From contig JAHFRV010000026.1 in the NCBI GenBank assembly GCA_023266095.1, positions 1 to 42,061 on the forward strand: 42,061 nucleotides of DNA, in the 5' to 3' direction. Made by a program: the position numbers and the translations under genes. Positions 5,426 through 29,123 of this stretch are shown piece after piece. A model generated the notes under the pieces. That model was not told the DNA's origin. It made no database searches and worked only from the letters and a program-made list of their open reading frames with translations. Position 1 is the first letter of the stretch; each line of letters opens with the position of its first letter. This DNA comes from Gammaproteobacteria bacterium. GTDB lineage: Bacteria > Pseudomonadota > Gammaproteobacteria > DRLM01.

Positions 5426-6226
5426 TCAACCCTCGGCCGCCAACTTCGCGCGGAAGGCCTCGGTCGCGGCCCGCGCGGCGATGATCGCCGCCAGGTTTTG
5501 CGCGTATCCCTTGCCGAGCGGGATGTCGTAGGTGATGGTGGCGCCGTAGGCGTCGGGGGCTTGTGGATCGCGGCGTACCTTGTCGAAGGTCAGCACCCGG
5601 GTGCCGAGTTCGAAAGCCTCTTTGATATCGTGGGTGACCATGAAGATCATCATTTGATTTTCCCGCCACAGATCCAAAATCAGTTCGTGCATGTCGGCGC
5701 GGATGCCGGGGTCGAGGGCGCCGAAGGGTTCGTCGAGGAGCAGGATCTTGGGTTGTTTCACCAGGGCCTGGGCGATGGAAAGGCGTTGCTGCATGCCGCC
5801 CGACAGCATGGCGGGATATTTGTGGCGCGCCTCGAACAGGCCGACCGCCCGCAGCGTGGCCTCCGCCTGGGTTATGGCGCGCCGCCGCGCGGCGCCGAAC
5901 AAACGACCGAGCAGCGGCGAGTCTTGCAGTTCCAGGCCGAGCAGCACGTTACCCAGCACGGTCAAATGCGGGAACACCGAATAACGCTGAAAGACGATGC
6001 CGCGATCGGGGCCCGGCTCGGCGGGCAGCGGTGTGCCGTTGAGCAGCAGTTCGCCGCGGCTGAGTGTCTCCTGTCCCAGCAATAAACGCAGAAAGGTGCT
6101 TTTGCCGCAACCGGAAGCGCCGACGATGGTGCAGAATTCCGGACTGCTGACCTTGAGGTTGATCCGTTCGAGGATCACCTGACCCTGGTATTCCTTCCGA
6201 AGATTTTTGATGTGCAGCGTATTCAT
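5426..6226 (-). CDS. ABC transporter ATP-binding protein of the predicted guanidine importer
   Basis: A 266-residue ATPase of the nitrate/sulfonate/taurine (SsuB/TauB) type. Walker A is GASGCGKST, the signature LSGGMQQR, Walker B ILLLDEPFGALD, and the switch His is in MVTHD. The start chosen is MNTLHIKNL at 6226, two bases after the permease stop; a longer in-frame start would overlap the permease by 85 bases and add a non-ABC leader. It should energise import through the membrane permease encoded just upstream. Sequence alone would allow a taurine- or nitrate-type substrate. The guanidine-I riboswitch heading the transcript is what points to guanidine. It is the last gene of its operon. Confidence 0.88.
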   Translation of the reverse strand: MNTLHIKNLRKEYQGQVILERINLKVSSPEFCTIVGASGCGKSTFLRLLLGQETLSRGELLLNGTPLPAEPGPDRGIVFQRYSVFPHLTVLGNVLLGLELQDSPLLGRLFGAARRRAITQAEATLRAVGLFEARHKYPAMLSGGMQQRLSIAQALVKQPKILLLDEPFGALDPGIRADMHELILDLWRENQMMIFMVTHDIKEAFELGTRVLTFDKVRRDPQAPDAYGATITYDIPLGKGYAQNLAAIIAARAATEAFRAKLAAEG

Positions 6227-6228
6227 GC

Positions 6229-7041
6229 TTACGTTTTTGCCGCCCACGGAAACAGCCGGCGCGACAACACCCGCAATAGATAATCCGACAAAAAGGCCAG
6301 CAGGGTGATCCACGCCACATAGGGCAGGATGGTGTCCATGGCCAGATAGCGGCGCAACAAAAAGATCCGGTAACCGAGGCCGCTTTCAGCGGCGATGGCC
6401 TCGGCGGCGATCAGAAACAACCAGGCCGAGCCCAACGTTAAACGCACCGCGTTGAGCAAACGGGGCAGGAGTTGCGGTAACACTACCCGCCAGATTACCT
6501 GCCAGGTGGAGGCGCCGAGGGTCTGGGCCTTGATGAGCTGTTCGTGCGGTATATCGATCACCCGCAGGTGCAGCTCGCGCATGATGCTGGGCGCGACGCC
6601 GAGTATGATCAGCATGATCTTCGACAACTCGCCCAAGCCGAAGAGGATGAACAGAATCGGCAGGATGGCGAGCGGCGGGATCATCGACAACACCGCGATC
6701 AACGGCGAGAGCCCGGCGTTGAAATAGGGAATCACGCCGGTGGCGATGCCGAACATCAAACCCAGCAGGGCGCTGATCGCCACCGCCAGCAGCAGGCGCT
6801 GCAAACTGGCGGCGGTGTCGGACCACAATTGAATTTCGCCGGTGCGGCGGTTGGGTTCCAAGGCCGCTTGCACTATCGCTTCCTTGAAGCTGCCCAGCGA
6901 CGGCAGTAGCTTGTCGTTGGGATTGTCGGCAAGACGCAGATCGGATGCGGTGAGATACACGATGATGATCAGCAGGAAAGGCAGCGCGCTGAGGCACAGC
7001 GCGCTGAAACGTCCCGGCTGCTGATTGAGCAAACGGCGCAT
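6229..7041 (-). CDS. ABC transporter permease of the predicted guanidine importer
   Basis: A 270-residue inner-membrane permease of the binding-protein-dependent (TauC/SsuC-like) family with about six hydrophobic segments. The coupling-loop motif for the ATPase is near residues 165-190 (AQTLGASTWQVIWRVVLPQL), the classic EAA-like loop. It lies three bases downstream of the binding-protein stop and two bases before the ATPase start, so the three genes are one tight operon. The family fits small organic solutes. The riboswitch upstream of the operon and the divergent guanidine hydrolase suggest guanidinium as cargo. That is inference from context. Confidence 0.88.
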   Translation of the reverse strand: MRRLLNQQPGRFSALCLSALPFLLIIIVYLTASDLRLADNPNDKLLPSLGSFKEAIVQAALEPNRRTGEIQLWSDTAASLQRLLLAVAISALLGLMFGIATGVIPYFNAGLSPLIAVLSMIPPLAILPILFILFGLGELSKIMLIILGVAPSIMRELHLRVIDIPHEQLIKAQTLGASTWQVIWRVVLPQLLPRLLNAVRLTLGSAWLFLIAAEAIAAESGLGYRIFLLRRYLAMDTILPYVAWITLLAFLSDYLLRVLSRRLFPWAAKT

Positions 7042-7044
7042 GTT

Positions 7045-8124
7045 TTACAACTTGCCTTGCGCGGCCATGTCCATGTAATCGGCCGTAAAGCGCAGCGTAG
7101 TGTTCTTGGGGTTGCCGAGCGTTTTGCCGCCGGGGAAGCTCATGCCGACGTGATCGACGCTGCGCGCGCCTTCGCCGAGGATGCCGTGCTCGAAAGAAAA
7201 GCGCCGCACTTGATCCATGGTCTTGATCAGCGTCGCGCTCTTGGTGAAAGTCACCGCGTCGGCTGGCGCATAAAACATTTTGGTGGTGGCCAATTGTTTT
7301 TCATAGCCGGCGAGGTCGGTGCCCGACGCGACACCCATGGCACTGCGTGCCGCTTTACCCTTGGCATCATTGCGCGACATGAGAGCCATGGTTTCGTACC
7401 ACGCACCCGCCAAGGCTTTGCCGAGGGCCGGGTTGGCGTTGAGGGTCTTGGTGTTGACCACCAGCAGATCGATGATCTCGCCGGGGATGTGGCTGGAGTC
7501 GAAGACCTTCAGCGCACCGGGCATGGCGGTTACTTCACTCAATTGCGGATTCCAGGTCACCACCGCCTTGGCGTCGGGCGCGGCGAATGCGGCGACGATG
7601 TCGGCGTCCGAAGTGTTGATCACTTTAACGTCGCGCTCGCTCAGCTTCACGCTTTCCAAGGCCCGCGCCAGCAGGTAATGGGAGACCGAGAGTTCCACCA
7701 GATTGACCGGCCGGCCTTTGATGTCGACCAGGCCCTTGGCCTTTTTCAGGACGATACCGTCGTTGCCGTTGGAGAAGTCGCCGACGATGAGCGCGGTGGA
7801 ATCGACGCCACCCGCGGCCGGTATGGTCAGCATGTCCATATTGGTCATCACGCAGGCGTCGAAGGCGCCGGCGGTGTATTGATTGATGGATTCGATGTAG
7901 TCGTTGATCTGCACGACCTCGATCTCGATGCCGTATTTATCCGCCCACTTTTTTACGATGCCCTGTTTCGCGGCGTAGTCCCACGGCATCCAGCCGACGT
8001 AGATCGACCAGGCGATGCGGTATTTATGGGCCGGGGCGGCCTGTGCGGCGGAGGACAACACGGCTGCGCTCAGCGCGAGACTCAAGATAAAAAATTGGGT
8101 GAAGGCTTTGATGAAGGTTCGCAT
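7045..8124 (-). CDS. Periplasmic substrate-binding protein of the predicted guanidine importer
   Basis: A 359-residue NMT1/TauA-like binding protein, similar to those called urea carboxylase-related ABC transporter proteins in databases. Such proteins are known to be linked with guanidine-I riboswitches. The start at 8124 gives a clean signal peptide (MRTFIKAF ... ALSAAVLSSAAQA) and has the ribosome binding site AGAGGTG just upstream; an upstream in-frame start lacks a signal sequence. The mature protein should capture its ligand in the periplasm and deliver it to the adjacent permease. It is the first gene of the operon, preceded by a leader of about 220 bases containing a guanidine-I riboswitch. 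Ligand identity rests on that context, not on visible binding residues. Confidence 0.85.
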   Translation of the reverse strand: MRTFIKAFTQFFILSLALSAAVLSSAAQAAPAHKYRIAWSIYVGWMPWDYAAKQGIVKKWADKYGIEIEVVQINDYIESINQYTAGAFDACVMTNMDMLTIPAAGGVDSTALIVGDFSNGNDGIVLKKAKGLVDIKGRPVNLVELSVSHYLLARALESVKLSERDVKVINTSDADIVAAFAAPDAKAVVTWNPQLSEVTAMPGALKVFDSSHIPGEIIDLLVVNTKTLNANPALGKALAGAWYETMALMSRNDAKGKAARSAMGVASGTDLAGYEKQLATTKMFYAPADAVTFTKSATLIKTMDQVRRFSFEHGILGEGARSVDHVGMSFPGGKTLGNPKNTTLRFTADYMDMAAQGKL

Positions 8125-8201
8125 GGCACACCTCTTATGTTTATCACTATCACTAGGATCGCAGAGTTGTGTGCCGGGGCGGGCGCGGTGCACGGACCTA
8201 T

Positions 8202-8345
8202 ACGAGGCGGCCCGGCGGTTGCATGACGCAATACCGCGGCACTTCCTCCCGGGCTTTTGTCCCGCCGTGTATCCGGCCCTATCAGGAGACGGACTGCATC
8301 CCTCGGACCAGTCGCCTCGTTTGCGCGAGGCCGGAACCCTAGATG
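8202..8345 (-). promoter_or_regulatory. Guanidine-I riboswitch (ykkC) ahead of the importer operon
   Basis: On the minus strand the aptamer reads CTAGGGTTCCGG from 8342 down, then a hairpin (CCTCG/CGAGG), CTGGTCCGAGGG, ACACGG, and the 3' block CGGGACAAAAGCCCGGGAGG ending near 8245. These blocks in this order are the hallmark of the guanidine-I class. After the aptamer, CGCCTCGT (plus-strand 8209-8202) is fully complementary to ACGAGGCG inside the aptamer (plus-strand 8320-8313). This pairing could form the ligand-free alternative structure. No poly-U terminator is seen before the start codon at 8124. Confidence 0.93.
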
Positions 8346-8358
8346 CTGTGATGCACGG

Positions 8359-8374
8359 TGCAAGCGGTGTGCCG
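8359..8374 (-). promoter_or_regulatory. Sigma-54-type promoter of the importer operon
   Basis: Read on the minus strand the sequence is CGGCACACCGCTTGCA, with the invariant GG and GC exactly ten bases apart and a perfect TTGCA -12 box. Transcription would begin about 12 bases downstream (near 8348), only a few bases before the riboswitch, which strongly supports it. It is close to the family consensus TGGCAC-N5-TTGCA. Confidence 0.7.
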
Positions 8375-8739
8375 GCTCCATCGCGAGGCGGCCCGCCTAA
8401 AATCGGGGCGAATCACAAATGCTGAAAAAGCAGCAAGCATGCCGCAACTTGCGTGCGCGCTGACGGGTGCAGCACTGGCGAGCAGGCGAAATGACGCGCC
8501 GTCTTGGTTCACATCCATGGCCTGGAACCGCGACTTTAAGCGCCGCGATGGTGCGCCCGCATCGCTGCGTGAGCGTTTATGGGGCAAATTTCTAATACCA
8601 CTCATCTGCGGTGTATTCGGACGCGTCTGTTCGGCGCAGTGAGTGCGAACCTCCACGTCGCGCAAATCGCTTTGCGCATAACGCATTTTAGCCAGCCGGT
8701 TTTGGGGTGGATGGTAATGCGACTGGGTTTCGCTTGCAC
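8375..8739. other. Divergent regulatory region between the two guanidine promoters
   Basis: No convincing gene is present. A 94-codon frame at 8358-8642 overlaps the left promoter and matches nothing. The region is the right size for an activator such as NtrC to loop to both sigma-54 promoters, and it holds an NtrC-like dyad at 8539-8555. A second, imperfect candidate is at 8454-8471 (TGCGC ... GTGCA, one base too far apart). Confidence 0.5.
8539..8555. promoter_or_regulatory. NtrC-like enhancer site
   Basis: The 17-mer centred here reads GCGCC-GCGAT-GGTGC plus one base on each side. The NtrC consensus is GCACC-N5-GGTGC, so nine of the ten arm bases match with correct spacing. It lies about 165 bases from the left promoter and 185 from the right one, a usual enhancer distance. 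Binding by NtrC itself is inference. Confidence 0.5.
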
Positions 8740-8755
8740 TGGCATATCGCTTGCT
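8740..8755 (+). promoter_or_regulatory. Sigma-54-type promoter of the guanidine hydrolase transcript
   Basis: TGGCATATCGCTTGCT has GG and GC exactly ten bases apart, a TGGCA -24 box and a perfect TTGCT -12 box. The predicted start near 8766 puts the riboswitch at 8817 inside a ~200-base leader of the guanidine hydrolase gene. Confidence 0.75.
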
Positions 8756-8816
8756 CTATGTTTAGCGAGTCCGAGGGTTGCGGCCGTATCGATGCGGCGG
8801 CACCTCGTTATGACAA

Positions 8817-8909
8817 CTAGGGTTCCGGTTCGGTGACGAATGCTGGTCCGAGGGTTGTCGGCCTCCACGGGGAGGTTACACGGCGGGATAAAAGCCCGGG
8901 AGATTCGTC
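8817..8909 (+). promoter_or_regulatory. Guanidine-I riboswitch (ykkC) ahead of guanidine hydrolase
   Basis: The aptamer blocks occur in order: CTAGGGTTCCGG (8817-8828), CTGGTCCGAGGG (8843-8854), hairpin CCTCC/GGAGG (8862-8875), TTACACGG, and CGGGATAAAAGCCCGGGAGA (8884-8903). GACGAAT at 8835-8841, just before the GGTCCGAG block, is complementary to ATTCGTC at 8903-8909 just after the aptamer, a candidate switching helix. No poly-U run follows, so control could be translational or by another termination mode. Confidence 0.95.
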
Positions 8910-8965
8910 GGTCTCTCACGACTCTTATATTCAGCCGTTTAACCAAACGATGGAGGATCCTCATC

Positions 8966-10156
8966 ATGTTTATCACATCCCGTAAGCACAGCGCGTTTAA
9001 TATCCATGGCGCGAAGCGCCGCCATCACCCCAACTTCGACAAGACCCAGCTGCAAGGCTGGAAGATGATGCACAAAGAAGCCGAGCTGCCGCATGCCGGC
9101 TGGGACGCCGAAGAAAAACGTTGCCTTGAACTCGGCCTACAAGGCGCCGACAGCATCCAAGATAAATCCATTCCGACCTTCGCCCGCGGCGAGCTGCCGC
9201 ACTTCGCCGGCATCAACACCTTCATGAAAGCGCCGTATATCGAAGACGTGAGAGATGTCGGCAAATTCGATGTCGCGGTGATGGGTGTGCCTTTCGACGG
9301 CGGCACGACATATCGTCCCGGCACGCGCTTCGGACCCCAAGGCATACGCCGCATCTCGGCGCTGTATACGCCGTACAATTATGAAATCGGCGTGGATCTC
9401 CGCGAGCAGATGAGCATGTGCGATATCGGTGATGTATTCACCATCCCCGCCAATATCGAAAAGACCTTCGATCAGATATCGAAGGCGACCGCACACGTCT
9501 TCGCCAGCGGCGCCATGCCGATTATTTTGGGCGGCGATCATTCGATCGGTTTTCCGACGGTGCGCGGTATTGCCAGTCAGACCGACAAGAAAATCGGCAT
9601 CATCCACTTCGACCGTCACGCGGACATACAAGAGAAAGACTTGGACGAACGCATGCACACCACACCCTGGTTTCATGCGACCAATCTCCCCAACGTGCCC
9701 GCCACCAATCTGGTGCAGATCGGTATCGGCGGCTGGCAGGTGCCGCGTCAGGCGGTGAAGGAGGCGCGCAAACGCGACACCACCATCATCACCATGCACG
9801 ACGTCGAGAAACTCGGTCTCGACAAGGTCGCCGAGATCGCGTTGGAGATGGCGTGGAAAAACTGCGACGCGGTGTATTTGAGTTTCGACATCGACTGCGT
9901 CGACGCCGGCTTCGTGCCCGGCACCGGCTGGCCCGAACCGGGCGGTTTTCTGCCGCGCGAGATTTTGTATCTGCTCGGCCTGGTAGCGAAGGAAGGCATC
10001 TGCGGCATGGAAGTCGTCGAAGTCTCGCCGCCTTATGACATCTCCGACATCACTTCGCTGATGGCCATGCGCGCCATCGTCGATGTGCTGGGCACGGTGG
10101 TCGCGCACGGCAAGATGGGCTCGCACCGTCACATCATCCGCGGTTGGAGTGGCTGA
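8966..10156 (+). CDS. gdmH: Guanidine hydrolase (nickel-dependent ureohydrolase, GdmH type)
   Basis: Arginase/agmatinase-superfamily enzyme of 396 residues, long like guanidine hydrolase and longer than usual agmatinases. Expected reaction: guanidinium + water to urea + ammonia. Metal motifs are intact: GGDHS, HFDRHAD and SFDIDCVD, followed by GTGWPEPGG, where ordinary agmatinases usually have GTGTPEPGG. The start at 8966 has GGAGG at 8952-8956; extension to 8840 would read through the riboswitch and is rejected. A guanidine-I riboswitch upstream, a guanidine-type importer divergent, and urease downstream all favour guanidine over agmatine. The nickel-insertion helpers that accompany GdmH in cyanobacteria (HypA/HypB-like) are not present beside it. 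Agmatinase or guanidinobutyrase remain alternatives, but less likely. Confidence 0.9.
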   Translation: MFITSRKHSAFNIHGAKRRHHPNFDKTQLQGWKMMHKEAELPHAGWDAEEKRCLELGLQGADSIQDKSIPTFARGELPHFAGINTFMKAPYIEDVRDVGKFDVAVMGVPFDGGTTYRPGTRFGPQGIRRISALYTPYNYEIGVDLREQMSMCDIGDVFTIPANIEKTFDQISKATAHVFASGAMPIILGGDHSIGFPTVRGIASQTDKKIGIIHFDRHADIQEKDLDERMHTTPWFHATNLPNVPATNLVQIGIGGWQVPRQAVKEARKRDTTIITMHDVEKLGLDKVAEIALEMAWKNCDAVYLSFDIDCVDAGFVPGTGWPEPGGFLPREILYLLGLVAKEGICGMEVVEVSPPYDISDITSLMAMRAIVDVLGTVVAHGKMGSHRHIIRGWSG

Positions 10157-10437: not shown

Positions 10438-11280
10438 ATGCAGTCGCAAACTCATGCACAAAACAACGAGGCTTGGAGCGCGCGTCTGGAATTGAATTTC
10501 GACGCGCATGCCGGCCGCAGTGTATTGGCGGCGCGCCGTCATTCCGGTCCGTTGCGGGTGCAGCGGCCGTTTTATCCTGAAGGTGAGCGGGTCTGTCACG
10601 TCTATTTATTGCATCCGCCCGGCGGTGTAGTGGGTGGCGATGAATTGATGATCGATGTCGTGGTGGCGGCAGGCGCCTCGGCCTTGCTCACCACTCCCGC
10701 GGCGGGTAAATTTTATCGCAGCCATGGCGCCGTGGCGCGGCAAGCGCAAACTTTGCGGGTGGAGCAAGGTGCGACGCTGGAATGGCTGCCGCAGGAGAGC
10801 ATCTTGTTCGACGGCGCTCACGCCGAGTTGTCGACGCGGGTGGAGCTGGCCGAGGGCGCGGGTTTCATCGGCTGGGAAATATTGGTACTGGGCCGGCCCG
10901 GCGCCGGTGAACGCTTTGAACACGGCGCGCTGCGGCAGCGTGTCGAACTGTGGCAGAAAGGTAAGCCTTTATATCTGGAACGTGCGCGTTATGAACAAGG
11001 CGCGGCTGTGCTCACCGTGCCGTGGGGTTTGGCGGGCTATGCGGTGAGCGGCAGTTTGCTGTGTGTGTGCAACGGCGTGGAGTTGCTGGAACAGCTGCGC
11101 GAGGCGGTGGTGCCGGCGGCGGGTTTGTTCAGCGCGACACAATTGGACGATGTGCTGCTGTGCCGCTATCTCGGCGAGCATGCCGATGAGGCGCGGCAGT
11201 GTTTCGAGACCGCGTGGCAGGTGTTGCGACCGGCGCTGCTACAGCGTCCGGCCTGTGCACCGCGGATTTGGGCGACGTGA
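10438..11280 (+). CDS. ureD: Urease accessory protein UreD (UreH)
   Basis: A 280-residue scaffold protein that binds apo-urease and, with UreF and UreG, opens the active site for carbamylation and nickel loading. Family motifs seen are RPFYPEG, HPPGGVVGGD, TTPAAGKFYRS and WLPQESILFDGA, in the usual order. The start at 10438 has GAAGGG about 10 bases upstream. It heads the urease gene run, which has the proteobacterial order ureD-A-B-C-E-F-G, and is followed by a 131-base gap containing a repeat element before ureA. Cytoplasmic. Confidence 0.95.
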   Translation: MQSQTHAQNNEAWSARLELNFDAHAGRSVLAARRHSGPLRVQRPFYPEGERVCHVYLLHPPGGVVGGDELMIDVVVAAGASALLTTPAAGKFYRSHGAVARQAQTLRVEQGATLEWLPQESILFDGAHAELSTRVELAEGAGFIGWEILVLGRPGAGERFEHGALRQRVELWQKGKPLYLERARYEQGAAVLTVPWGLAGYAVSGSLLCVCNGVELLEQLREAVVPAAGLFSATQLDDVLLCRYLGEHADEARQCFETAWQVLRPALLQRPACAPRIWAT

Positions 11281-11289
11281 TCGATTTTG

Positions 11290-11392
11290 GAGGCGCTGAA
11301 TAATTCCATCCTGGAATTTTCAGGGCGGCAAGACCCTACGCTTCGCTCTTCCCGGTGCCGGAGGAACCTCTGAATAAATCAGCGGCTCGTTA
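11290..11392 (+). repeat. Short intergenic repeat, copy 1 (between ureD and ureA)
   Basis: Shares two blocks with the region between ureF and ureG on the opposite strand: CTGAATAATTCCATCCTGGA near 11296 and AGGAACCTCTGAATAAATCA near 11372. The blocks are separated by a variable middle. The copies are inverted relative to each other, as expected of a mobile, non-coding repeat (REP- or MITE-like). The left block contains an internal inverted repeat, AATTCCATCCTGGAATT. Confidence 0.7.
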
Positions 11393-11411
11393 TGAATTTT
11401 GAGGAACAGAC

Positions 11412-11714
11412 ATGGAACTCACCCCGCGGGAAAAAGATAAGCTACTGTTGTTCACCGCCGCGCTGCTCGCCGAGCGGCGCAAGGCGCGCGGCTTGAAATT
11501 GAATTATCCCGAAGCGGTGGCCTATATCTCCGCCGCGATTTTGGAAGGTGCCCGCGATGGCAAGACCGTGGCAGAGATGATGAGTTACGGCACGACCCTG
11601 CTCAGCCGCGGCGAGGTGATGGAGGGTGTGGCGGAGATGATCGCCGAAGTTCAGGTGGAGGCGACCTTCCCCGACGGCACCAAGCTGGTGACGGTGCACA
11701 ATCCGATAGTATGA
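11412..11714 (+). CDS. ureA: Urease gamma subunit
   Basis: A 100-residue small subunit of the three-chain bacterial urease, with the typical start [23 protein letters not shown] and ending in the expected TLVTVHNPI-like segment ([11 protein letters not shown]). It has a structural role in the (UreABC)3 complex. GAGGAA lies upstream of the start. It is followed almost directly by ureB. Confidence 0.97.
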
Positions 11715-11737
11715 GCAATCCAACGGAGGAGCAGCAC

Positions 11738-12051
11738 ATGATCCCAGGTGAAATCGATACGGCGGACGGCGACATCGAGTTGAACGCGGGCCGCATCACG
11801 CTGCGCATCGTCGTCACCAACAGCGGCGACCGGCCCATCCAGGTGGGCTCGCATTATCACTTCTACGAAACCAACAACGCCTTGCGATTCGATCGCGACT
11901 TGGCGCGCGGCAAGCGTCTCAACATCGCCGCCGGCACGGCGGTGCGTTTCGAACCGGGACAACGTCGCGAAGTGGAGCTGGTGGAATATGCGGGTCAACG
12001 CCGCGTTTATGGGTTTCAGGCCAAAGTGATGGGCGCGTTGGGGAAGAAAGC

Positions 12052-12055
<4 letters not shown>
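11738..12055 (+). CDS. ureB: Urease beta subunit
   Basis: A 105-residue structural subunit of urease. The start at 11738 gives the classical N-terminus MIPGEI and has GGAGGA at 11725-11730. A start at 11711 overlapping the ureA stop would add nine unusual residues and is less likely. Family features are [17 protein letters not shown] and [16 protein letters not shown]. The stop overlaps the ureC start by four bases, indicating translational coupling. Confidence 0.96.
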
Positions 12056-13755
<1,700 letters not shown>

Positions 13756-13781
13756 CGATAGAATCGAAGCGAGAGATTGAC

Positions 13782-14210
13782 ATGTTGCATATCACCGAAC
13801 GTATCGCCGACCCCATTCCCTGCAATACCTCGCTAACCCTGCCCTTCGACTTGCGGCAGAAAAGCCGCCAGCGGGTGCGCTTGGACGACGGTCGCGAAGC
13901 TGCCTTGATATTGCCGCGCGGCGTGGTGTTGCGCGGCGGCGATAGCTTGCGTGCCGACGGCGGCGAGTTGATCGCGGTGCGTGCCGCGATTGAAGCGGTG
14001 TCCATCGCGTCCAGCGACGATGCCCGGTTGTTGGCCCGCGCCGCTTATCACCTGGGTAACCGCCATGTACCGGTGCAGGTGGGCGCGGGCTGGTTGCGTT
14101 ACGGCCGCGACCACGTGCTGGATGACATGTTGCACGGTCTGGGTTTGAGCGTGCGGCATGAGGAATCGCCCTTCGAACCGGAGTCCGGCGCCTATCAACA
14201 TGGACACTGA
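13782..14210 (+). CDS. ureE: Urease accessory protein UreE (nickel chaperone)
   Basis: A 142-residue nickel-binding chaperone that donates nickel to UreG and then urease. The start at 13782 (MLHITERI) is the usual N-terminus; the frame also opens at a TTG at 13752 inside the ureC end, which is unlikely. The C-terminal domain carries the metal-site segment HLGNRHVPVQV and LDDMLHGLGL. The tail is short with only two histidines (YQHGH), not a long His-rich tail, so nickel storage is probably minor. It overlaps ureF by 11 bases. Confidence 0.94.
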   Translation: MLHITERIADPIPCNTSLTLPFDLRQKSRQRVRLDDGREAALILPRGVVLRGGDSLRADGGELIAVRAAIEAVSIASSDDARLLARAAYHLGNRHVPVQVGAGWLRYGRDHVLDDMLHGLGLSVRHEESPFEPESGAYQHGH

Positions 14211-14889
14211 GCCGCGTTCGCGCGACGGCGCTCTGTTGCGCCTGTTGCAATTGACCAGTCCGACCTTACCCATCGGCGCCTTCGCTTATTCGCAAGGCCT
14301 GGAATACGCGGTGCAGGCGCAGTGGGTGCACGATGAAACGTCGGCGCGGACATGGATAATCGGCGTGATGCGCGAAGGCGTGGCGCGTTTGGATGTGCCG
14401 ATGCTGGCGCGTTTATATCGCGCCTGGTCGGTGAACGACGATGAGGCGCTGGATTACTGGAGCGCTTATCTGCGCGCCAGCCGCGAAGCGGCGGAACTGC
14501 GGGAGGAAGACCGCCAATTGGGCATGGCTCTCGCCCGTTTATTGCGCGATTTGGAAATAGCCGAGGCCGCACCGTGGTTGACCCGGCCGCAAGCCAGTTT
14601 GGCGACCCTGTTCGCTTTGGCGGCGGTGCGCTGGGATATTTCTTTGCGGGACGCCGCGAACGGTTATCTGTGGTCGTGGACCGAGGCGCAAGTGGCGGCC
14701 GCCGTTAAACTGGTGCCGCTGGGGCAGACGGCAGGACAACGCATTTTGTCACACGCGGTGCTGGAAATTACCGCGGCCGCGGCAGCGGGATTATCTGTGG
14801 ATGATGGCGAGATCGGTTACGCCGCGCCGCGCCTCGCCATCGGCAGCGCACTGCACGAAAGTCAGTATTCGCGTTTGTTTCGGTCGTGA
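14200..14889 (+). CDS. ureF: Urease accessory protein UreF
   Basis: A 229-residue helical accessory protein that joins UreD and UreG in the pre-activation complex and acts as the fidelity checkpoint for nickel loading. The typical opening is LLRLLQLTSPTLPIGAFAYSQGLE; later LVPLGQTAGQRIL is conserved. The start at 14200 (MDTEPRS) is chosen because a start at 14158 lies deep inside ureE. A 254-base gap with a repeat separates it from ureG. Confidence 0.95.
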   Translation: MDTEPRSRDGALLRLLQLTSPTLPIGAFAYSQGLEYAVQAQWVHDETSARTWIIGVMREGVARLDVPMLARLYRAWSVNDDEALDYWSAYLRASREAAELREEDRQLGMALARLLRDLEIAEAAPWLTRPQASLATLFALAAVRWDISLRDAANGYLWSWTEAQVAAAVKLVPLGQTAGQRILSHAVLEITAAAAAGLSVDDGEIGYAAPRLAIGSALHESQYSRLFRS

Positions 14890-14992
14890 ATGGGTTGAAC
14901 TACGGAGAGCACGGAGGACACGGGGAAGAGCAAAGTTTGTAAGTCGGGGATATATAGGCGATGGGTGGAGCGCGTTATTGTTTTGCTCATTT

Positions 14993-15083
14993 AAGGAACC
15001 TCTGATTTATTCAGAGGTTCCTGCGGCACAAGGATGTGCGTGCTCTGAGAATTCCAGGATGGAATTATTCAGAGCTTCCTTAA
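14993..15083 (-). repeat. Short intergenic repeat, copy 2 (between ureF and ureG)
   Basis: The inverted copy of the repeat at 11290-11392. The ends are conserved and the middle differs and is shorter. Within this copy ACCTCTGATTTATTCAGAGGT (15 of its bases as two arms) and AATTCCAGGATGGAATT each form hairpins, and GGCACA/TGTGC (15025-15039) forms a third. It could act as mRNA structure between ureF and ureG as well as being a mobile repeat. Confidence 0.7.
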
Positions 15084-15143
15084 GAATATCTCCTAAGAAT
15101 TCTTCGTGCTCTCCGTGGTTATAAATTACTTGGAGATTCAGTT

Positions 15144-15776
15144 ATGACTCAATCCGTATTGCGCGTCGGTGTCGGCGGCCCGGTGGGTTCGGGCAAGACC
15201 GCCTTGATGCTGGCGCTCTGCCGCAGCCTGCGCAGCCGTTATCAAATCGCGGCGGTGACCAACGATATTTATACCAAAGAGGATGCGCAGTTCCTCACCC
15301 GTCACGAGGCACTCAGTCCGGAGCGCATCATCGGCGTCGAAACCGGCGGCTGTCCGCACACCGCCATCCGTGAGGACGCCTCGCTGAATCTCGCCGCCGT
15401 CGATGAGTTGTGCCGGCGTTTTCCCGATCTGGATCTGGTGTTGATCGAGAGCGGCGGTGACAACCTCAGCGCGACCTTCAGCCCCGAGTTGTCCGATCTG
15501 ACCTTGTACGTGATCGACGTGGCGGCCGGCGACAAGATACCGCGCAAAGGCGGCCCCGGCATCACCAAATCCGATTTACTGGTGATCAATAAGATCGATC
15601 TCGCGCCGCATGTCGGCGCCTCGCTGGAGGTGATGGAACACGACGCGCGGCGCATGCGCGGTGACAGGCCCTTCGTGTTCACCAATCTCAAAACCGGTAC
15701 GGGCCTGGAGCACGTGCAGGACTTCATCATCCGCGCAGGCATGTTACGCGCCAACGGCGAAAAAATTTTCGCGTGA
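15144..15776 (+). CDS. ureG: Urease accessory protein UreG (GTPase)
   Basis: A 210-residue SIMIBI-class GTPase that delivers nickel to urease. The P-loop is [11 protein letters not shown] near residue 10, the metal-binding CPH is in [18 protein letters not shown], and the switch and base-recognition motifs [13 protein letters not shown] and VINKIDLAP are present. TTGGAG lies upstream of the start. It is the last gene of the urease run. Confidence 0.98.
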
Positions 15777-15890: not shown

Positions 15891-15906
15891 TGGCATGGAG
15901 CATGCA
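15891..15906 (+). promoter_or_regulatory. Sigma-54-type promoter upstream of the first porin
   Basis: TGGCATGGAGCATGCA keeps GG and GC ten bases apart with a TGGCATG -24 box; the -12 box ATGCA differs from TTGCA at one base. It lies ~80 bases upstream of the porin start. A half-site GCACC (15782-15786) of the NtrC type lies ~105 bases further upstream. Confidence 0.6.
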
Positions 15907-18805: not shown

Positions 18806-18821
18806 TGGCATACAGGTTGCA
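18806..18821 (+). promoter_or_regulatory. Sigma-54-type promoter of the amide/urea transporter operon
   Basis: TGGCATACAGGTTGCA has GG and GC ten bases apart, TGGCA and a perfect TTGCA. It lies 93 bases upstream of the binding-protein start at 18914. Confidence 0.75.
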
Positions 18822-18913: not shown

Positions 18914-20149
18914 ATGAAGCAGCATGCGTTTATTAGTGGGTGGCGACGGTCGCTGGTGTTGGCGGTGGGCCTGTGCTTCGCGGCGGCGTCGCAATCCTTC
19001 GCCGCGCCGACGACCGCGCAGGTCAATACCACAGGCCTCGCCGTCACCGACAAAGAAGTCACGGTCGGTATTCTCCATTCGCTGACCGGCACCATGTCGA
19101 TCAGTGAGACCGGTTCGGTCGAGGCCGAGAAGTTGGCGATCGAACAGATCAACAAAATGGGCGGCATTCTCGGCCGGCAGATCAAGATCGTGCAGGAAGA
19201 CGGCGCCAGCGACTGGCCGACCTTCGCCGAAAAATCCAAGAAGCTTTTGGTGCAGGACAAAGTAGCGACGGTGTTCGGCTGCTGGACCTCCGCGTCGCGC
19301 AAAGCGGTGTTGCCGGTGTTTGAAAAAGAGAACGGTCTGCTGTACTACCCGACTTTTTATGAAGGTCTGGAGCAATCGAAGAACGTGATCTATACCGGTC
19401 AGGAAGCCACGCAGCAAATCCTCGCCGGTTTGGACTGGGTGGCCAAGGAGAAAAACGCCAAAACCTTTTACCTGATCGGCTCGGATTATATTTGGCCGCG
19501 CACCTCCATGAAGATCGCCCGCAAGCATATCGAGAACGTGCTTAAGGGCAAGGTAGTCGGCGAAGAATATGCGCCGCTCGGTCACACTCAGTTCGGTTCC
19601 GTCATCAATAAAATCAAGTTGAAGAAACCCGATGTGATTTATGCCGCGGTAGTGGGCGGCAGTAACGTGGCCTGGTTCAAACAGCTCAAAGCGGCCGGCA
19701 TCACCGGTGCCAAGCAAACGCTGCTGACCATCTCGGTCACCGAAGATGAAGTGCTGGGCATTGGCGGTGAAAATCTGGTGGGCTTCTACTCGGCGATGAA
19801 ATATTTCCAGAGCCTGGACAATCCCAATAACGCCGCCTTCGTGAAGGCCTTCAAGGAACGCTGGGGCGCCGACAGCGTGATGGGCGACGTGACCCAGGCC
19901 GCGTATCTCGGTCCCTGGTTGTGGAAGGCCGCGGTGGAAAAGGCCGGCAGCTTCGACGTGAGCAAGGTGGCGGCGGCCTCGCCCGGCATCGAGTTGAAGA
20001 CCGCGCCGGAAGGTTACGTCAAGGTCCATCCCAATCATCACTTATGGAGCAAGGCGCGTATCGGCCAGTGGAAAGCCGACGGCCAGGTGAAGCTGGTGTA
20101 TGAGTCCGCTTTGATTGAGCCCAATCCGTTTCCGGCGGGTTATCAGTAA
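18914..20149 (+). CDS. Amide/urea ABC transporter substrate-binding protein (FmdD/UrtA-like)
   Basis: A 411-residue periplasmic binding protein of the branched-chain amino acid/urea class (HAAT family). The signal peptide ends near FAAASQSFA (residue ~30). The mature part opens VTVGILHSLTGTMSISETG and has FGCWTSASRKAVLPVFEKENGLLYYPTFYEG, the UrtA/FmdD/AmiC-like ligand-cleft pattern. The window holds a second, UrtA-like paralog. This one sits with an amidase, has no long UrtB, and follows fmdA-fmdB, so short-chain amides such as formamide or acetamide (and perhaps urea) are the likely ligands. GGGGG precedes the start. Confidence 0.88.
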   Translation: MKQHAFISGWRRSLVLAVGLCFAAASQSFAAPTTAQVNTTGLAVTDKEVTVGILHSLTGTMSISETGSVEAEKLAIEQINKMGGILGRQIKIVQEDGASDWPTFAEKSKKLLVQDKVATVFGCWTSASRKAVLPVFEKENGLLYYPTFYEGLEQSKNVIYTGQEATQQILAGLDWVAKEKNAKTFYLIGSDYIWPRTSMKIARKHIENVLKGKVVGEEYAPLGHTQFGSVINKIKLKKPDVIYAAVVGGSNVAWFKQLKAAGITGAKQTLLTISVTEDEVLGIGGENLVGFYSAMKYFQSLDNPNNAAFVKAFKERWGADSVMGDVTQAAYLGPWLWKAAVEKAGSFDVSKVAAASPGIELKTAPEGYVKVHPNHHLWSKARIGQWKADGQVKLVYESALIEPNPFPAGYQ

Positions 20150-25120: not shown

Positions 25121-25136
25121 TGGCATGCCTCCTGCT
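25121..25136 (+). promoter_or_regulatory. Sigma-54-type promoter of the porin 2-urtABCDE unit
   Basis: TGGCATGCCTCCTGCT has the -24 box TGGCATG with GG and GC ten bases apart; the -12 box CTGCT differs from TTGCT at one base. It lies ~115 bases before the second porin start. Confidence 0.55.
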
Positions 25137-27354: not shown

Positions 27355-27488
27355 GGACGCTGTGAAGTCGCGGGGATGGGTGGCGCATCCCCGCGTTTTT
27401 TCAGCGAGGCTTGCCGAGGTTTGACCGCACGCCGGGCGTCATCCGCGTGCAAACTAGTTTGGCTGAATTAAGCATGCGACGAGACTGT

Positions 27489-29123
27489 ATGACATCTCTG
27501 CTGCGCGGGTGCTTGCGCGCCCTCACCATGCTGGCGCTGAGCCTGCTCTGCGTCTTGCCGACGGCTTGGGCTGAAGAAAACGTCGGTGTCGATTTGATGG
27601 CGCAGCTCCAGCAGTTCAAGGATGGTAGCTTCGATGACAAGGCCCGCATCGTCGCGGCCTTGGAGTCTTCCGGCGATGAACGGGCGATCGCCATTTTGAA
27701 ATCGCTGTTGGCGGGTGTGCTCTATTATCGCAAGGACGATGAGCGCGTAGTGATCGTCAAAGAGAGCGACGACGCTTATCAGCTGACCGATGTGCTGAAC
27801 GGCGAATCCTTGGGTGAGGCGGAGCGCCGCGACGTCAAGAAAATCCCTATCAACAACGCCCTGCGCGGACAACTGCGCGGTGCCTTGGCGCGGCTGAGTC
27901 TCTCGCATAAAAATCCCGCCGTGCGTTTGGAGGCGGTCAAGGAAATCATCAAGGACATCGACGCGGATAGTGTGCCGCTGCTGCGCGAGGCGCTGACTAA
28001 AGAAACCGACGACAAAGTGCTGGAGGCGATGCGCACCGGCGTGGCGATGATGGATGTCGGAAGTGATGATAAGGCCGTACGTCTGACTGCCATTGAAAAC
28101 TTGGGCGATACCCTGTTACCCGAGGCGCGTCAGCATTTGCAAGCGCTGGTCGAACCGGGTGGCGTGTCCGATGCGGACATTCGGTTCGCGGCGGCGCAGG
28201 CCTTGGCGCAAATCGAATCGCGGCGGCAAGTGTATGATTTTCTCGAAACCGTGTTCTTCGGACTGAGCTTGGGTTCGGTATTGTTACTGGCCGCCATCGG
28301 TCTCGCCATCACCTTTGGCGTGATGGGGGTCATCAATATGGCCCACGGCGAATTGATGATGCTGGGCGCGTACACGACCTATGTCGTGCAGTTGTTGATG
28401 CCCAATCATATTGAATACTCGTTGCTGGTGGCCGTGCCCGCGGCGTTTTTGGTGGCGGGTTTGACCGGCATCGCCATCGAGCGCGGCGTCATCCGCTTTT
28501 TATACGGCCGGCCGCTGGAGACCTTGCTCGCCACCTTCGGTATCAGTTTGTTGTTGCAGCAGGCGGTGCGCAGCGTGTTCTCGCCGCTCAATCGTTCGGT
28601 GGAGACCCCGGCGTGGATGAGCGGGTCGCTGGAAATCAACAGTGCCTTGGCCCTTACTTATAATCGCCTCTACATCATTCTCTTCAGTTTGCTGGTGTTC
28701 GTCGCCTTGCTGCTGATTCTGAAAAAGACCTCGCTGGGTTTGCAGGTGCGTGCCGTTGCACAGAATCGCGACATGGCCAGGGCCATGGGTATCCGCACCC
28801 AATGGGTGGATGCGCTCACTTTCGGTTTGGGTTCGGGCATCGCGGGGGTCGCCGGTGTGGCCTTGAGCCAGCTCACCAATGTCGGACCGAATCTCGGACA
28901 GGCCTACATCATCGATTCCTTCATGGTAGTGGTGTTCGGTGGCGTCGGGAATTTATGGGGCACCTTGGTGGGGGCGTTGTCGCTGGGGGTGGTGAATAAA
29001 TTCCTGGAGCCGTGGTCGGGCGCGGTGCTGGCCAAGATCCTGGTGCTGATCTTCATCATTTTGTTCATCCAAAAACGGCCGCGGGGTCTGTTCCCGCAAA
29101 AGGGCCGTGCCGCGGAAGGTTGA
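27489..29123 (+). CDS. urtB: Urea ABC transporter permease UrtB (long form)
   Basis: A 544-residue permease with a signal-like N-terminus (MTSLLRGCL ... PTAWA), a ~230-residue periplasmic HEAT-like helical domain (ARLSLSHKNPAVRLEAVKEI, MRTGVAMMDVGSDDKAVRLTAI), and then a LivH-type membrane domain beginning near residue 250 with FGVMGVINMAHGELMMLGAYTTY. The long N-domain is characteristic of UrtB and absent from the paralog at 20231. The start at 27489 is preferred for its signal peptide; ATG 27474 is an alternative, and upstream ribosome binding sites are weak. Confidence 0.93.
   Translation: MTSLLRGCLRALTMLALSLLCVLPTAWAEENVGVDLMAQLQQFKDGSFDDKARIVAALESSGDERAIAILKSLLAGVLYYRKDDERVVIVKESDDAYQLTDVLNGESLGEAERRDVKKIPINNALRGQLRGALARLSLSHKNPAVRLEAVKEIIKDIDADSVPLLREALTKETDDKVLEAMRTGVAMMDVGSDDKAVRLTAIENLGDTLLPEARQHLQALVEPGGVSDADIRFAAAQALAQIESRRQVYDFLETVFFGLSLGSVLLLAAIGLAITFGVMGVINMAHGELMMLGAYTTYVVQLLMPNHIEYSLLVAVPAAFLVAGLTGIAIERGVIRFLYGRPLETLLATFGISLLLQQAVRSVFSPLNRSVETPAWMSGSLEINSALALTYNRLYIILFSLLVFVALLLILKKTSLGLQVRAVAQNRDMARAMGIRTQWVDALTFGLGSGIAGVAGVALSQLTNVGPNLGQAYIIDSFMVVVFGGVGNLWGTLVGALSLGVVNKFLEPWSGAVLAKILVLIFIILFIQKRPRGLFPQKGRAAEG

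Follow-up and report, generated by a model that had tools for sequence, protein, structure and literature searches.

Sigma-54 promoter motifs ahead of guanidine-I riboswitches suggest two-input control of guanidine use in Pseudomonadota

Operons for guanidine assimilation of the GdmH and guanidine carboxylase types are known to carry guanidine-I (ykkC subtype 1) riboswitches, and the locus described here shares with them the aptamer, the TIGR03427 importer and the enzymes (PMC12186494, PMC11410670). Why guanidine sensing is so common among bacteria is considered an open question (PMC12186494). The second closely related system is the NtrC/sigma-54 regulon (glnK, urt, ure, nas), with which the locus has in common the -24/-12 promoter motifs, upstream dyads resembling the GCAC type and genes for nitrogen scavenging. 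Both control devices are known; new is their combination in series, which is undescribed in the literature searched. The locus lies in the window, i.e. the whole 42,061-nt stretch of gammaproteobacterial DNA that was analysed.

Genes, riboswitches and sigma-54 motifs of the window

The window encodes a guanidine importer, a GdmH-type guanidinase, a urease, two urea transporters and amidases (Table 1). The gene for the substrate-binding protein, a TIGR03427 member and as such a component of a guanidine-type importer, probably starts with the ATG at 8125. The best PDB sequence matches of the arginase-family gene product were 7esr/7oi1 (577 bits) and 9fek (554 bits), which we take to be the GdmH-type guanidinases of Synechocystis and of a comammox organism, respectively. 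The next match reached 170 bits and both agmatinase models stayed below their cut-offs, so that the protein appears to be closest to characterised GdmH and not to other ureohydrolases. Downstream of the urease cluster, genes for a TorF-family porin, a formamidase, UrtABCDE, an amidase, another porin and a second UrtABCDE are located. The second UrtB (27411-29123) has an N-terminal extension of ~270 residues with HEAT-like repeats ahead of the permease domain. A match to the Rfam family 5_ureB_sRNA (12204-12487, minus strand, 141 bits) is antisense to ureC; it was set aside as a small RNA and may represent sequence homology of the urease gene.

Table 1. Features of the window at the guanidine genes and further sigma-54-like sites. 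Sigma-54 scores count matches to the consensus TGGCACG-N4-TTGCW, in which 12 letters are specified; G002 is a MAG of the same genus.
Feature	Position	Strand	Evidence
ABC transporter ATPase	5426..6313	minus	PF00005
ABC transporter permease	6229..7041	minus	PF00528
ABC transporter substrate-binding protein, NMT1-type	7045..8125	minus	TIGR03427 ('putative urea'), 571.8 bits, above cut-off
Guanidine-I riboswitch aptamer	8244..8353	minus	Rfam RF00442, 86.6 bits
Putative sigma-54 (-24/-12) promoter CGGCACACCGCTTGCA	8374-8359	minus	10/12 consensus; 16/16 identical in G002
Possible second, weaker NtrC-like dyad CGCGCCGTCTTGGTTCA	8495..8511		9/12; 82% conserved in G002 (background 55%)
NtrC-like enhancer dyad AGCGCC-GCGAT-GGTGCG	8539..8555		9/12; 16/17 conserved in G002
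Putative sigma-54 (-24/-12) promoter TGGCATATCGCTTGCT	8740-8755	plus	10/12 consensus; 15/16 identical in G002
Guanidine-I riboswitch aptamer	8806..8904	plus	Rfam RF00442, 83.2 bits
Predicted GdmH-type guanidine hydrolase (arginase family)	8966..10156	plus	PF00491
Urease cluster	10438..15776	plus	UreD, UreA, UreC, UreF, UreG by Pfam/NCBIfam; other subunits by position
Sigma-54-like site TGGCATGGAGCATGCA	15891..15906	plus	10/12; ahead of TorF-family porin gene; no riboswitch
Sigma-54-like site TGGCATACAGGTTGCA	18806..18821	plus	10/12; ahead of urtA (18914-20149); no riboswitch
Sigma-54-like site TGGCATGCCTCCTGCT	25121..25136	plus	10/12; ahead of TorF-family porin gene (25254); no riboswitch

The two riboswitches of the window are divergent, and both score above the RF00442 gathering threshold of 63 bits. 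The two sigma-54 motifs which the initial annotation had reported in front of them were recovered both by reading the window and by the consensus scan, and GG-N10-GC is present in each. A single site of this kind is weak evidence, because the 42-kb window contains seven 10/12 matches, a number that speaks for an origin by chance in GC-rich intergenic sequence. Sites with a score of at least 10 were found in 0.73% of the 160-nt control windows, and given this rate the naive probability of two correctly placed and correctly oriented sites is near 5e-5. Three of the five other 10/12 sites are located directly ahead of urtA or porin genes, which also argues against chance, as does the conservation of the two footprints in G002. 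In an alignment with this MAG, identity is 55% in the spacer that separates the promoters, the two sites are nearly unchanged (Table 1), and the plus site scores higher in G002 (11/12) than in the window.

Alternatively, both operons might be transcribed from sigma-70 starts, with expression set by the riboswitch alone and the GG-N10-GC motifs little or not used. The sigma-70-like hexamers TTGCAC (8734) and TATGTT, separated by 17 nt, overlap the plus sigma-54 site and would fit such a start. However, the hexamers do not keep their spacing in G002, where the sigma-54 site scores higher, and the sigma-70 reading of the plus promoter was rejected on this account. Furthermore, a scan of 8120-8970 for sigma-70-like promoters gave no match at its threshold. 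By comparison with other genomes, both riboswitches are nearly certainly preceded by sigma-54 promoters.

Transcription starts were taken to lie 12 nt past the C of the -12 GC. For the minus promoter the predicted start (~8348) coincides with the first P1 base of the riboswitch (P1 at 8347), as expected from the initial annotation, which had placed both starts just before the riboswitches; the predicted plus start (~8766) is located farther away, ~46 nt ahead of P1 (8812). The resulting 46-nt plus leader contains a strong hairpin (8772-8807) with a compensatory U-A to C-G change in G002. Across the leaders in general, hairpins were only weakly in excess (mean z -0.87). An element similar to CACAATYTG, mostly 13-18 nt before P1, was observed in about half of 61 long leaders (L065-L154); with at least 7/9 matches anywhere in the leader it was present in 31 of the 61, from 14 families, compared to 8% of control windows. 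It may extend the aptamer or belong to the expression platform.

In the predicted fold of the ligand-free plus leader, the ribosome-binding site (8952-8956) is paired with the P2 strand 8862-8866. Forcing the aptamer to form opens this site somewhat in the prediction (unpaired 5-19% without and 10-44% with the aptamer), and the plus leader may therefore hide its ribosome-binding site when ligand-free. No intrinsic terminators were found in either leader at the scan threshold, which together with the pairing of the ribosome-binding site in the ligand-free plus fold gives a weak hint of control at the level of translation.

Sigma-54 sites at guanidine-I riboswitches across Pseudomonadota

For comparison, 92 RF00442 matches from 68 Pseudomonadota genomes (90 further matches and the two of the window) were inspected, and a site was called when a sigma-54 score of at least 9 occurred within 150 nt upstream of the riboswitch. 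Such sites were found at 76 of the 92 guanidine-I matches and in 33 of 40 families; at 72 matches (78%) the score was at least 10 and at 46 at least 11. Control windows from the same loci reached these three levels in 3.8%, 0.73% and 0.19% of cases, and of 30 TPP riboswitches in the same genomes three had a site at a score of at least 9 and none at a score of at least 10. A search of all spaced trinucleotide pairs returned GCA-N7-TGC, part of the sigma-54 motif, as the top pair (57/92 vs 179/7518, log10 p -67). The origin of both window motifs by chance was rejected based on the control windows, the TPP control and this unbiased search; with the same-place site in 33 of 40 families it is also statistically refuted, which leaves it a negligible probability.

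At 16 of the 92 riboswitches no site was called. One of these is located in a genome (G123) in which RpoN and NtrC are both present and the other riboswitch has a site. In a set of named genomes found through GdmH, a site was present at 36 of 45 riboswitches, and seven of the nine exceptions are, judging from the names, Rhodobacterales. This set partly overlaps the first sample (L164 is identical to G002, and L158 appears to be G041). Among named plasmid records, those of Pantoea stewartii, P. agglomerans, Rhizobium tropici CIAT 899 and R. leguminosarum have 12/12 sites each, Serratia has a site scoring 11, and two Caballeronia sites score 10 and 11. Sinorhizobium fredii has a guanidine-I riboswitch without a sigma-54 site. 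This locus and several of the apparent Rhodobacterales speak for sigma-70 starts with control by the riboswitch alone, whereas a sigma-70-like match was found in only three of the 76 leaders bearing a sigma-54 site; together with the G002 comparison this makes sigma-70 starts in the window very improbable. The predicted arrangement of a sigma-54 site and a guanidine-I riboswitch is widespread and not special to the window, and the earlier proposal of sigma-54 control gained strong comparative support from the enrichment, the unbiased motif search and the named genome and plasmid sets.

Several loci deviated from the general pattern. A conjugative plasmid of Serratia proteamaculans (L297) carries, ahead of the importer operon, two copies of the sigma-54 site, the guanidine-I riboswitch and a short hypothetical ORF, at a distance of ~1.07 kb from each other. 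Three RF00442 matches below the threshold (L152, L153 and L154; 58, 47 and 43 bits) have no sigma-54 site; the ORFs downstream of them fall into a single cluster, whose tested member encodes an EamA-family transporter, and these RNAs may be other members of the ykkC family or divergent guanidine-I riboswitches. Guanidine-II riboswitches were set aside as a second contrast, with only 17 loci available, two of which had a sigma-54 site, both in one genome. One guanidine-II locus of G131 (L294) has an 11/12 site and is located near a biotin-carboxylase-type gene divergent from one for a TIGR03427-like binding protein, and the pairing with sigma-54 may thus extend to guanidine-II. A fatty-acid-desaturase-family membrane protein (PF00487, L101) is encoded directly downstream of a guanidine-I riboswitch with a sigma-54 site in G244, and a similar ORF lies beside a guanidine-II riboswitch with a sigma-54 site in G131 (L283). 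This protein might oxidise a methylated guanidine.

NtrC-like dyads and the putative activator

The dyad at 8539-8555 (GCGCC-N5-GGTGC) lies ~200 bp from either predicted start. Its presence agrees with the initial annotation, which had described it as NtrC-like; its match to TGCACC-N5-GGTGCA is weak, a level of 9/12 being reached by ~11% of control windows. The weak dyad still counts, because it is conserved in G002 (Table 1) and because similar dyads lie between the divergent promoters in G060 and in G041. An unbiased dyad search upstream of the 76 promoters gave GCACC-N5-GGTGC as the top inverted repeat (log10 p -28), and this sequence with at most one mismatch was present at 33 of the 76 promoters (43%) compared to 103 of 3121 controls (3.3%). 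GCACC-N5-GGTGC is the classical NtrC half-site and spacing.

NtrC (TIGR01818) was detected above cut-off in 62 of the 68 genomes, including that of the window (758.8 bits, cut-off 558.6, G000:C36). Five of the six genomes without canonical NtrC also have no sigma-54 site (Fisher p 6.6e-4, phylogeny not corrected for), and four of these five belong to one family; for G320, the remaining genome, completeness is 79%. RpoN was found in 64 genomes. Of those without it, G590, G690 and G560 also have no site, the riboswitch match of G560 being a weak one. In the draft genome of the window (G000) rpoN was not found either. The whole block of lptB, rpoN, hpf and rapZ is absent from G000 and present in its relatives G001-G004. 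The absence of rpoN would by itself speak against sigma-54 promoters in the window, but since lptB, which is normally essential, is missing alongside, it is probably an assembly gap.

In published transcriptome data for Burkholderia cenocepacia H111 under nitrogen limitation, expression of I35_7283-7286 is lost when ntrC is mutated (log2 -6.0 or zero mutant reads); the annotations of these genes are urea-carboxylase-related transporter, aminomethyltransferase and urea carboxylase. In the same study, 95% of the top NtrC genes depend on sigma-54 as well (PMC5491218). By its annotation, I35_7283-7286 looks like a guanidine carboxylase operon similar to that of Caballeronia, which has a guanidine-I riboswitch and a sigma-54 site.

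The sigma-54 promoters could also be real and served by an activator other than NtrC, e.g. NtrX or a regulator dedicated to guanidine or amines. The modest 9/12 score of the window dyad would be compatible with such a regulator, as would several alphaproteobacterial loci in which a good sigma-54 site is accompanied by no NtrC dyad scoring at least 9, and about 20 TIGR01818-like matches per genome reveal many enhancer-binding proteins. On the other hand, it is the NtrC consensus that tops the unbiased dyad search, the absence of sites tracks the absence of NtrC, and the RNA-seq data of the Burkholderia ntrC mutant point the same way, which renders a different activator unlikely. NtrC is the likely activator, and the connection to nitrogen limitation drawn in the initial annotation is backed by the dyad search, the gene context, the co-occurrence with NtrC and the published ntrC RNA-seq (PMC5491218).

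Proposed series control and comparison with known systems

The arrangement is very probably best explained by sigma-54/NtrC-dependent transcription and a guanidine-I riboswitch acting in series as an AND-like gate. Under nitrogen limitation NtrC would be phosphorylated, and an enhancer-binding protein, most likely this phosphorylated NtrC, would bind the dyad midway between the divergent promoters and open both of them by looping. RNA polymerase with sigma-54 would then transcribe both operons from the two -24/-12 promoters, the transcripts starting at, or ~46 nt before, the guanidine-I aptamer, and binding of guanidine to the nascent leader would let the RNA yield expression. With the promoter key and the riboswitch key in series, the importer and the guanidinase/urease genes would be made only under nitrogen shortage with guanidine present. 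Motifs, their conservation, their enrichment and the gene context are the observations which speak for such a gate; from this anatomy we infer its logic with the AND behaviour, as well as promoter use, NtrC as the activator, looping from the enhancer and the expression platform. In this bacterium, as in most sampled Proteobacteria, guanidine-use genes appear to be switched on only once a sigma-54 promoter has started the RNA and a guanidine riboswitch has permitted expression. The island as a whole looks like a nitrogen-scavenging regulon with an extra RNA key only at the guanidine genes. The wider proposition, in which a two-input gate is conserved throughout Pseudomonadota, guanidine is primarily a scavenged nitrogen source and a conserved leader element (ACAAYYTG plus a hairpin between start and aptamer) takes part in the switch, is favoured with some reserve.

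A nitrogen-starvation promoter before the riboswitch in most proteobacterial lineages sampled would mean that guanidine is a reserve food rather than mainly a poison. It is predicted that riboswitch reporters and growth tests in ammonium-rich media miss most of the response, and the sigma-54 promoter would contribute to induction for which riboswitches alone are at present held responsible. Many tractable strains are available in which the promoter key and the RNA key could be separated.

In the open literature, with subscription journals outside the search, no paper was found that joins a guanidine riboswitch with sigma-54 or NtrC, in line with the initial annotation, to which no such riboswitch with a sigma-54 promoter was known. 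The other half of the pairing seems to be contained, unnoticed, in two publications, the H111 study (PMC5491218) and a sigma-54 PSSM survey from 2025 (PMC12316311). As in the present analysis, sigma-54 control is predicted in the survey for members of the carboxyguanidine-deaminase family (COG3665, PF09347 type) from alpha-, beta- and gammaproteobacteria, with 102 predicted COG3665 targets, 59% of which were called urea carboxylase; unlike the present analysis, the survey does not mention guanidine, and a riboswitch appears only in the title of a reference (PMC12316311).

In the published guanidine-I operons, induction was credited to the riboswitch or riboswitches alone (PMC12508155, PMC11410670), whereas here a putative sigma-54 promoter precedes each aptamer. 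The urease genes of the window share the strand of the plus riboswitch and lie downstream of it, but are not at riboswitch-regulated locations in the four example genomes of PMC11410670. Ordinary members of the NtrC/sigma-54 regulon have no ligand-sensing riboswitch after the promoter, and urtA and the porin genes of the window resemble them in having a sigma-54-like site alone, while the guanidine operons of the window differ from them by the riboswitch that follows each predicted promoter.
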